A stretch of DNA of 64,000 nucleotides from a bacterium (GTDB lineage Bacteria; Vulcanimicrobiota; Vulcanimicrobiia; Vulcanimicrobiales; Vulcanimicrobiaceae): contig JAKBKY010000009.1 of assembly GCA_021832345.1 (NCBI GenBank), positions 12,671-76,670 on the forward strand. The letters run 5' to 3'. Within the stretch, counting starts at the first letter, position 1. Every line of letters starts with the position of its first letter. The position numbers and the translations under genes are program-made. Positions 36,269-44,573 of this stretch are shown piece after piece. Under the pieces are notes generated by a model that was given only the letters and a program-made list of their open reading frames with translations, searched no databases and was not told where the DNA came from.

Positions 36269-36910
36269 CTAAAGGCTGCCGACATGAAAGAGTTTGAAGA
36301 AGAAGACGACGGCGAACGTGCCGAGGACCGCGCCTGCAACGACCTGCGCGACGGTATGCGCTTTGAGATAGACGCGCGCCCAGCAGACCAACGGAATGAG
36401 GACCAGGAAGGGTAACGGTTCGCGGCCGTAGAGGATGGTGAGCGCTACTAAGGGTGCGGTGATGCCGAGGGCATGCGTGCTGATCTTCCAGTAGCGCGTG
36501 ATGTACTGTACCACCACCGTCGAGAGCGTGTAGCTGGCCATCGCCGCAACCAGGAGCGTCGGCGCGTGCAGGATCCAGAGCACGGCGGTGCCCAGAAGAT
36601 AGAAGATGACGAAGGCACCGAAGACGGACTCGCGCTCAAGCCGAACCGACATATCGAGGTCGGAGATTTGGTCGCTGCCGTAGAGCCAGAAAACGTAGAG
36701 CATCGGTCCGAGCGACGTAAAGAAGGTCGAGAGGAAGATCAACCACCAGAAATCCAGCGTATCGGTTGTTTGGGTGTGGGCTAAGATGACGAAGAGCGCC
36801 AGGGCCGTCAGGAACGGGTTAAAGATCGTCGAAACGATCCGCGCCAGGTCCTTCCAGATCCGGCGGGTCTTGACGGGGATGATGGTCGGCAGCGCGTCCG
36901 GCACGCGCAT
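36269..36910 (-). CDS. PAP2-like integral membrane phosphatase family protein
   Basis: 213 residues with about six membrane helices. ISTHALGITAPLVAL resembles PAP2 motif 2 (Ser-x-His), and WARVYLKAHTVAQVVAGAVLG resembles motif 3 (Arg...His...). The first motif is present only as a degenerate MSVRLERES. Lipid phosphate phosphatase activity is plausible but the weak first motif leaves doubt. It converges on murI with a 3-base gap. Confidence 0.7.
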   Translation of the reverse strand: MRVPDALPTIIPVKTRRIWKDLARIVSTIFNPFLTALALFVILAHTQTTDTLDFWWLIFLSTFFTSLGPMLYVFWLYGSDQISDLDMSVRLERESVFGAFVIFYLLGTAVLWILHAPTLLVAAMASYTLSTVVVQYITRYWKISTHALGITAPLVALTILYGREPLPFLVLIPLVCWARVYLKAHTVAQVVAGAVLGTFAVVFFFKLFHVGSL

Positions 36911-41368: not shown

Positions 41369-44011
41369 TTAGGAGAAGAGGATGCCGCGTTGACGCTCCA
41401 GTTCGACGGTGACCCCTAGGGCAGCCGTGCTCACCTTGGCATACTCTCGCACGAGCGCGGCCATCTGCGAATAGTCGCCGTACATGGCGTGGGAGCGTGA
41501 GGACTCGTCCCGGGCCGCTTCCTGAGCTTGCTCGAGGGTCGTTTGTGCCGCATCGGCAAAGGCGTGGATGCGCACAAACGCTTCCTGTGCCGCGCGCGCT
41601 TGCCGGGAGCTCTGCTCGGAGCGAGCGACACCGGACTCGATGGCAACTGCGGCCTCCTTTCCACGTGTGTCGAGGTCTGCGAGGACTCGTCGAATCTCTT
41701 GCGTTGACGCTTTCGTCTTGTCGGCCAGGTTACGCACCTCGCCGGCAACGACGTTGAATCCCTTGCCGTGCTCTCCGGCTCGTGCTGCTTCGATTGCGGC
41801 GTTGAGCGCGAGCAGATTGGTCTTATCGGAGACGGAGCGGACCAGCGCGATGATCTCAACGATCTGGCGCATCGACTTTGCGAACTGGTCGAGGGCTTGC
41901 CGGCTGTGAATCGCCATCGACGAGAGGACGTCCACGGTTGCATTTAAGCGTGCCACGGTCTGCCGCATGGCGTCGACTTGCGGAGCGACGCTCGCCAAGC
42001 GCTCTTTCAGCCGGCCGAACTCGGAGGCGAGGCGATCGTTCGAAGTGCTCAGTTCCAGCGAACGATTCGAGAGCGTTGCGAGGCTGGTGCTCTGTGAGTG
42101 AGCTTGCGAGCCGATTCGATCTCCGGTCGACCGAACCGCCCGCACCGACGCGTCGATGGCCTCCACGATGCTGGACATGGAGAACGCGTGCGTGTCTTCG
42201 GCCGAGCGCTCCGTCGTTTGGGGGCGCCACGTTTCGAGCCCGCGGCGCACGAGCAGCCGGTAGACATCCGTTGGGAAGAGTGGCTCCATGCGTTCCCAGA
42301 CAAAGCGTGACGCGTTGACGAAGGCCTCGCGTTCATCGGCAAGGAGCTCTCGCACCTGGAGGTGTTTTCGCAGGGTTGCGAGCGCTTCGAGTTCGTCCTC
42401 GGCGGCGATCCGCCTATGGATGGCGGTCGCCTCGGCGAAGGCGCGTTCGAGGACGTCGCGGTCCTCCTCGGAGAGCCGGTGTAGACGCGCTTGATTTGCC
42501 AAAACGATCTGCGTGTTGTAGGTGTGTGCGGTCAGCGTCAGATACTGTTGCACTTCATAGAGGCGCGCACCGAGAATATTCGACAAAGGGTTCTCTTGCG
42601 CATCGACTTCATGGCTATCGAGCGCGCGATAGAGGGCATCGAACGGCAGCACTTTTGGGGAGGCGCCAAGAGCATGCATGAGCGCGAGGTAGACGATCGA
42701 ATCCTGAATACGAATGCGCAGTCGCCGACAATCCTCCGGCATCGCGATGGGGCGGACGGAGTTGGTGAAGTGTCGCATACCGTTCTCGAAGTACGCCATG
42801 CCGACCACCCCAAACGGCGCAAATGATGTGAGGATCCGTCTCCCAAGCTCCCCATCCAAGACTCGATGAGCGCTGCGCGAATCATCGAACACGAAGGGGA
42901 GATCGAAGAGTTGTGCCAGCGGCAGGAGGGCCCCGGAGACGAAGGTCGTGACGCTCGCGAAGTCGAGTTCTCCCGAGCGTACCCGAAGTAATGCCTCAAA
43001 CTCACTGCCGCCCGAGAATGGAATCTCCAACTCCAGGACGATGCGTCCATCGGTCTGCTCCGCCACGCGTTGCGCGACGTGTTCCCAGGCGCGTGAGGGC
43101 GGATAGCCGCGAGGCAACAGCGTGGCTGCACGCAGCGAAGTGCGTTCGCGCGGTGCCGCACGATCGCGCGATCGTGCGATGTAGGCTACCTCTGCGCCGT
43201 AATACGCCAATCGTTGCGTAGCAAATGCCGATTCGAGCGCTTCACGCCCTTGCTGTGCCGCAAGGGCCGCCAGCGATTCGGTCTCGCGGCCCATGCGATC
43301 CGCGGCTTGGCTATGTTCGCGTCCAGCGACCACCGCTTGATCGAGCACAACGGAGAGGTCCGCCGCTAACTCGGCGATCTCCCCGAGCGAGAGCCGCGCG
43401 GTATCGGCAAGGGGGGTCGACTCAGCCGAGCGCTCGGCATTGGCGCGCACTGCGCTGATGGTGGCTTGCGCCTCGCGTTGAACGTCGGCGACGAGGCGTT
43501 TGATGGTGGCCGTCGATTCGTTGGTGGTCTTAGCTAATCGACCGACTTCGCCCGCGACGACACCGAACCCCAGTCCGTGGGCTCCGGCGCGCGCGGCCTC
43601 GATTGCGGCGTTGAGAGCCAGGAGTTGGGTTTCGTCGGAGACCTCTTCGACAAACTCGGTCATCTGGCCGACCTGGTGCATGAGTCGTCCAAAGTCGTCC
43701 ATCGCGTCGGCCGTGGCTGCCGAGAGTTCGGCGAGTTGCACAACGGAGGTTAACAGCGATTCGACGATCTCAAATGAATCGCCGAGATCAGTAGCGGCGA
43801 GGCGTGCGGCCGTCTGCGCTCCAGTAAGTCGCTGTGCCGTTTCGCGCGAGACTCTTGCTAGGAGACCGGCTGACTCCGAGAGTGCCACCATGAGGGTCGT
43901 CTGTTCTTGGGCGCCGGCTGCGACCGTTTCGGAGGCATGGCGCACGGATTCGGCGGCGGCCGAAAGGCTCGCATTAAACCGTTCGAAGCGGATGTCGGTG
44001 TGCTCGACCAC
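41369..44011 (-). CDS. Soluble chemoreceptor fusion: MCP signalling domain - TRAP DctP binding domain - MCP signalling domain
   Basis: 880 residues from a GTG; an in-frame stop three codons upstream fixes the N-terminus, so no signal peptide is hidden. Residues about 30-260 form a long helical MCP domain with hairpin tip [20 protein letters not shown] (about 129-148). Residues about 293-585 match TRAP-transporter DctP solute-binding proteins along their length: [53 protein letters not shown] (the ligand-carboxylate Arg) and [12 protein letters not shown]. Residues about 605-870 form a second MCP domain with tip [20 protein letters not shown] (732-751). I see no membrane helix or HAMP domain. 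It is probably a cytoplasmic receptor sensing an organic acid; no che genes are nearby. Confidence 0.9.
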
Positions 44012-44114: not shown

Positions 44115-44573
44115 TTAGGCCTTCTTGCGACGAGTCGCTTTCTTGCGACCGGCGGTCTTCTTGCGACCGGCGGTCTTCTTGCGACCGGCGGTCTTCTTAC
44201 GACCGGCGGTCTTCTTGCGACCGGCGGTCTTCTTGCGACCGGCGGTCTTCTTGCGGCCGGCGGTCTTCTTGCGGCCGGCGGTCTTCTTGCGACCGGCAGT
44301 CTTCTTGCGACCGGCGGTCTTCTTGCGACCGGCGGTCTTCTTGCGGCCGGCGGTCTTCTTGCGACCGGCGGTCTTCTTGCGGCCGGCGGTCTTCTTGCGA
44401 CCGGCAGTCTTCTTGCGACCCGCAGCAGCCTTACGCGTGGTCTTCTTACGTCCGCCTGCGGCGGCTTTTCGGGTGGTCTTCTTGCGTCCGCCTGCGGCGG
44501 CTTTACGGCGGGCTTTGCGACGTGGCTTTTTCTCTTCCATCATCGTGTCGCCGTTCATCATGTCGTGATCCAT
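44115..44573 (-). CDS. Histone H1-like Lys/Arg/Ala repeat protein
   Basis: 152 residues: an acidic Met-rich start (MDHDMMNGDTMMEEKK), two longer AAAGGRKKTTRK units, then 15 perfect AGRKKT hexapeptides and a basic end (ATRRKKA). The composition matches bacterial H1/Hc1-like nucleoid proteins that bind DNA by charge. GGAGGA precedes the ATG at 44573; an overlapping ATG at 44577 is out of frame. It has its own promoter and terminator. A DNA-compacting role is inferred from composition only. Confidence 0.85.
   Translation of the reverse strand: MDHDMMNGDTMMEEKKPRRKARRKAAAGGRKKTTRKAAAGGRKKTTRKAAAGRKKTAGRKKTAGRKKTAGRKKTAGRKKTAGRKKTAGRKKTAGRKKTAGRKKTAGRKKTAGRKKTAGRKKTAGRKKTAGRKKTAGRKKTAGRKKATRRKKA
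44154..44423. repeat. 18-bp tandem repeat, 15 copies, in the H1-like gene
   Basis: Unit gcgaccggcggtcttctt (plus strand), with silent changes at a few positions between copies. The period of 18 keeps the frame, so copy number can change by slippage without breaking the protein. Confidence 0.93.

Follow-up and report, generated by a model that had tools for sequence, protein, structure and literature searches.

The window analysed here, a stretch of 64,000 nucleotides, carries on its reverse strand a single frame of 880 codons (41369–44011, −), with a GTG start at 44011 and a stop codon ending at 41369. On the basis of the ORF, Pfam matches and homologues, the 880 aa product was assigned as a chemoreceptor with the domain order MCP1–DctP–MCP2. 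Pfam gave two MCPsignal stretches (E 1.7e-53, 181 bits against a cut-off of 34.6) and, between them, a match to DctP, the TRAP solute-binding protein family, at residues 299–575 (42287–43117, −), covering positions 5–282 of the 286 in the profile with E 9.9e-65; NCBIfam dctP (TIGR00787) scored 217 bits against a cut-off of 175. The MCP1 signalling hairpin occupies residues 7–283 (43163–43993, −), with AlphaFold helices at 7–141 and 146–283, and the MCP2 hairpin, which aligns to MCP1 and equals it in length, occupies residues 612–879 (41375–42178, −), with helices at 612–745 and 750–879. DctP is joined to MCP2 by a linker of low model confidence (residues 589–611; 42179–42247, −). The hairpin tips lie at residues 126–157 in MCP1 (43541–43636, −) and 729–760 in MCP2 (41732–41827, −), the tip leucine of their 11-residue motif being residue 133 in the former and 736 in the latter. 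No HAMP or further sensor domain was detected above cut-off when Pfam was run on the whole 880-residue receptor. The original prediction for this locus had placed two MCP hairpin tips at these positions and a full DctP domain in the middle of the protein, and had noted the absence of HAMP, and on all three points the analysis agrees with it.

In the window's genome the receptor gene has moved and now has an ABC ATPase gene on one side and topA on the other; in four relatives (L034, L036, L039 and L050) it is located between murI and a homologue of window gene 36269–36910, which has no Pfam match. Any functional tie with the adjacent dipeptide-type ABC ATPase genes was ruled out, since relatives have the receptor gene at another place in the block, beside the homologues of 36269–36910 and of murI. 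Window positions 44115–44573 (−) encode a 152-residue Lys/Ala-rich protein with about 15 KKTAGR repeats and no Pfam match, which by eye is histone H1- or AlgP-like and in which more than one frame stays open because of the tandem repeats.

Homologues with the same domain order, a search for which had been proposed as a check of the original prediction, were found in 25 genomes (two fragmentary) representing 11 genera, at 56–72% aa identity and with no internal stops, when 99 genomes from a single Ca. Eremiobacterota family were searched in six frames; across the 149 genomes of the phylum, the three-domain protein was confined to that one family. Those relatives that carry a name are MAGs, with Candidatus Eremiobacterota appearing in many of the titles. 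Matches were also obtained to 935 plasmids, none of which covered 80% of the protein, the best being TRAP-binding proteins alone. The dN/dS values from seven pairs ranged between 0.03 and 0.12 in each of the three domains, MCP1 being the lowest, and thus the most constrained, in six of the seven, so that MCP1 as a decaying remnant was ruled out. A frameshift, a chimera or a chance fusion of three genes, the kind of error that the original prediction had itself warned of, is virtually inconceivable given 23 full-length copies from many assemblies with the same order and length and no internal stops, and dN/dS far below 1.

The first in-frame stop upstream of the GTG is located six codons before it (five codons between), not three as had been reported, and there is no other start between the two; in homologues, too, a start lies only a few codons from the conserved region. 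Inspection of the upstream frame and of the homologue starts revealed no signal peptide, and hydropathy across the whole receptor revealed no membrane helix outside the DctP core. The sole 19-residue stretch with a hydropathy above 1.6 (1.62 at residue 357) falls inside that core, ruling out a hidden membrane helix. Since the DctP domain comes after an MCP domain, no N-terminal signal belonging to the domain itself takes it out of the cell. Membrane-spanning helices and an extracytoplasmic ligand domain, the features of classical MCPs, are absent from the receptor. Soluble MCPs exist, and these features mark only the classical subclass. The frame, the homologue starts and the hydropathy profile support placing this chemoreceptor, whose DctP ligand domain is intact, in the cytoplasm as a soluble protein, in keeping with the cytoplasmic receptor, devoid of signal peptide and membrane helix, that had been proposed.

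Comparison of the DctP part with the PDB returned likenesses to TRAP binding proteins, the best being 4p47 and 7bbr, a sugar-acid binder. A model of the DctP domain by itself (pLDDT 65.7, pTM 0.67) aligned with TRAP SBPs at Z 21.1 and 3.1 Å over 229 residues, and all matches among the 50 listed were TRAP binding proteins. Three residues are invariant in 19/19 aligned homologues, namely R413 (42773–42775, −) in the NGMRHFTN motif, R434 (42710–42712, −) and N474 (42590–42592, −) in the AQENPL motif; R413 and N474 we take, from SiaP structures, to have pocket roles. R434 occupies the position, as matched by eye from the motif, of SiaP R147, which pairs with the ligand carboxylate, is an Arg in 96.8% of the family and is essential for high affinity (PMC4646407). 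Because R434 matches SiaP R147 and is invariant, the ligand is probably a carboxylate, which is the best guess as to its class; an internal organic acid, as suggested in the original prediction, is plausible, and the sugar-acid binding of a close solved relative may be taken as a hint only.

The genomic context suggests that this domain acts as a sensor. Among the genomes with the three-domain protein, the receptor holds the sole DctP domain in 22 of the 24 tested, and clear DctM permeases were found in just 2 of 25, both from genus g37. The window's genome has one borderline DctM-like protein scoring 22 bits (in a second search, 31 bits for DctM and, about as well, 28 bits for the citrate-transporter family CitMHS), compared with approximately 300–370 bits for most genuine full-length DctM proteins. 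Given the single DctP domain in 22/24 genomes and clear TRAP permeases in only two, the receptor's DctP is predicted to be a sensor and not part of a transporter. It shares the full-length DctP fold and the conserved carboxylate Arg with DctP-type TRAP SBPs such as 4p47, 7bbr (DctPAm) and SiaP, but it is not exported, goes without a TRAP permease and is embedded in a receptor; judged on export and permease, the receptor would not be counted among the TRAP binding proteins. The domain might also have ceased to sense a small molecule and now serve as a rigid spacer, a dimerisation platform or a reader of a protein partner. In favour of such a role, dN/dS is higher in DctP than in MCP1 in each of the seven pairs (0.05–0.11 versus 0.03–0.07), but the invariant R413, R434 and N474 would be needless in a spacer and the same domain is found joined to MarR DNA-binding domains, where a ligand domain is expected, making this alternative improbable.

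Proteins in which a cytoplasmic DctP domain would serve in signalling were also found elsewhere in the Eremiobacterota. The MCP-DctP receptors (L067:4606-6408, L069:3663-5450, L086:4464-6431 and L068:3499-5454) have one canonical MCP, a C-terminal sensor and no signal peptide, and the MarR-DctP proteins from genera g30 and g37 (L032:82-1557, L070:4167-5789, L071:3599-5152 and L082:3577-5061) combine a MarR-type winged-helix domain with DctP, also with no signal peptide, and are apparent carboxylate-responsive regulators of Eremiobacterota. Unlike the present receptor, the proteins of these two groups have no second MCP, their output being one canonical MCP or a DNA-binding domain. In a DctP tree that included 27 periplasmic or anchored DctP rows, every cytoplasmic fusion was placed on one side of a branch, apart from the periplasmic proteins (support 90/92, not starred), which suggests that DctP entered the cytoplasm once and that domains were shuffled afterwards. 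Two DctP proteins from other families of the phylum (L079:4537-5754 and L080:4478-5665) have an N-terminal hydrophobic helix and are possibly membrane-anchored.

The two hairpins of the receptor could be aligned without gaps across 268 residues, always 603 positions apart, with 29% aa identity, and formed sister groups in a tree (97/86); a gapless match at a single offset is what an old tandem duplication would leave, and the pair appears to fit this. Positions 377, 380, 381, 384, 385 and 388 (Tsr numbering), presumably trimer contacts, are identical between MCP1 and MCP2. Elsewhere the MCP1 tip is conserved yet divergent. MCP2 has N376, K/R394, E402 and R404 in 24/24 homologues (N732, K750, E758 and R760 in the window), whereas MCP1 has Q/E, L, E and G at the same positions in 24/24 (with Q129, L147 and G157 in place of the N, R and R of MCPs). 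Other MCPs of the family keep the N (22/22), R394 (22/22) and R404 (21/22), and the MCP-DctP proteins retain them too (6/6). R394, E402 and R404 are the residues by which the outer subunit of the E. coli core complex touches CheW (PMC6954272). With the roles of the tip residues borrowed from E. coli, MCP1 would have lost two of the three CheW contacts (R394 to L and R404 to G) and MCP2 would be canonical, so that the suggestion in the original prediction of signalling through two hairpins is not upheld for MCP1. A near-consensus putative methyl-accepting site (5/6 positions) was found in MCP1, with Q35-E36 as the candidate pair (43904–43909, −), and none in MCP2; E36 and Q37 of MCP1 are invariant in the alignment.

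As for potential partners, the window's genome encodes one CheA (L063:8670-10598) and one CheW beside CheY, CheC, flhA and flhB, together with CheR and CheB. CheW is represented by one single-domain protein (171 aa) and by CheA's own CheW domain, with no triple-domain CheW found in this genome. Only three MCP proteins are encoded, the other two carrying membrane helices; with three MCPs and one CheA/CheW, the receptor is predicted to supply one of the three signals that feed a single flagellar pathway. In three receptor-bearing draft genomes no CheA match was obtained, probably owing to incompleteness. In genera g5 and g32 (G005–G022 and G067–G073), which include several nearly complete genomes, neither CheA nor the receptor was matched, and the chemotaxis system is thus patchy within the family.

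The best overall explanation, which we consider probable on balance, is a cytoplasmic DctP carboxylate sensor with output via MCP2 to CheA and with MCP1 as an inner, non-coupling partner. The central DctP domain, with the fold and key residues described above, would bind a carboxylate-bearing metabolite inside the cell and close on it. This closure would act mainly on MCP1, since about 7 residues separate DctP from the C-arm of MCP1 and about 22 separate it from MCP2. The canonical MCP2 tip would recruit CheW and the genome's single CheA, both of which have their genes present, and the signal would pass from MCP2/CheA to CheY and on to the flagellar motor. MCP1, in which most trimer-contact residues are kept and CheW contacts are lost, would be the inner non-coupling partner and would pair with MCP2 of the same chain to give a four-helix bundle like that of an ordinary receptor dimer; we put this same-chain pseudo-dimer geometry at slightly less than an even chance.

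In an ordinary receptor dimer, one subunit occupies the trimer axis and its partner is turned towards CheA/CheW (PMC4692393). An engineered single-chain Tsr~Tsr signals nearly normally with a linker of at least 22 residues. For an equal-length pair with one non-coupling tip, MCP1 inside and MCP2 outside within one chain is the simplest reading. The full-length AlphaFold model (pLDDT 64.5, pTM 0.47) shows two equal-length hairpins and aligned with an E. coli receptor over model residues 2–872, with 282 aligned residues; comparison of this model with the PDB gave mostly unrelated helical bundles and was used for a packing hint only. The model gives a weak indication that both hairpins of one chain may pack into one bundle, weak because the model is poor and because a single-chain prediction tends to fill in for a missing dimer partner. 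In its fullest form, the proposal is of an obligately asymmetric single-chain ‘dimer’, in which MCP1 would take the DctP input, carry the adaptation site and sit at the trimer axis without CheW binding, MCP2 would face outward and couple to CheA/CheW, and the receptor would be part of a radiation, specific to the phylum, in which cytoplasmic DctP sensors became fused with MCPs and MarR regulators; we offer this as possible, though rather doubtful in all its parts.

The same domain order could also build a two-ended rod like that of DosM (V. cholerae VC1403), a receptor of an F9-class cytoplasmic system, with hairpin-to-hairpin dimers, DctP in the middle and the tips at opposite ends of a cytoplasmic two-layer array. 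DosM is a natural double-MCP receptor that forms a two-ended rod and not a bundle, cryo-tomography showing the rod joining two baseplates; cytoplasmic arrays with two opposed layers, 30–35 nm apart, are also known, and both hairpins of the present receptor are conserved. Each arm has about 135 residues and hence, at 0.15 nm per residue, a length of about 20 nm; from two such arms and DctP, the baseplates of a rod are predicted to lie about 45 nm apart. However, one end would be without a normal baseplate, MCP1 having no R394 or R404 equivalent in any of the 24 homologues; the window's genome, with one CheA and no triple CheW, has no F9 system; and AlphaFold, if weakly, bundles the hairpins. 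This arrangement is accordingly regarded as unlikely, although a serious contender. DosM and the present protein are alike in being soluble receptors with two MCP signalling domains per chain, but 98% of DosM homologues are without a sensory domain and DosM goes with the triple CheW of the F9 class, whereas the present receptor has DctP between its hairpins, one tip that has lost CheW contacts and no triple CheW in its genome. With the triple CheW missing, the receptor would fall outside the DosM/F9 class.

Compared with the asymmetric pair favoured here, two further systems share the feature of two signalling domains per chain, namely the natural soluble single-chain MCPs of Rhodospirillum centenum and a few others and the engineered Tsr~Tsr. 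For the natural proteins the source paper mentions no ligand domain between the halves, and the engineered protein has a plain linker and identical halves, in contrast to the DctP domain and the differing halves of the present receptor. SBP families are known as the sensing modules of some receptors, cytosolic ones and membrane ones alike (PMC9602780). The original view that the double-MCP sandwich was undescribed holds in part: receptors with double signalling domains are known (DosM and the natural single-chain MCPs), nearly all of them without a sensory domain, and the version with DctP was not found in the papers searched. Literature searches for DctP–MCP fusions gave no match, which is weak evidence of absence. 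A DctP domain between two MCPs and the fixed tip asymmetry were likewise not found in the literature searched, which lay outside most subscription journals. What appears to be new is the DctP sensor within a double-MCP receptor and the consistent tip difference, double-MCP receptors themselves being already known.

DctP proteins are known for periplasmic scavenging, and here the DctP fold would now be a cytosolic signalling domain in bacteria that are mostly without a TRAP transporter. Such a receptor could keep the flagellar motor directly informed of metabolite levels inside the cell. The roles of the inner and outer dimer subunits in the core signalling complex, so far approached with engineered single-chain receptors (PMC4692393), may find a natural test in the fixed difference between the two tips of this receptor.
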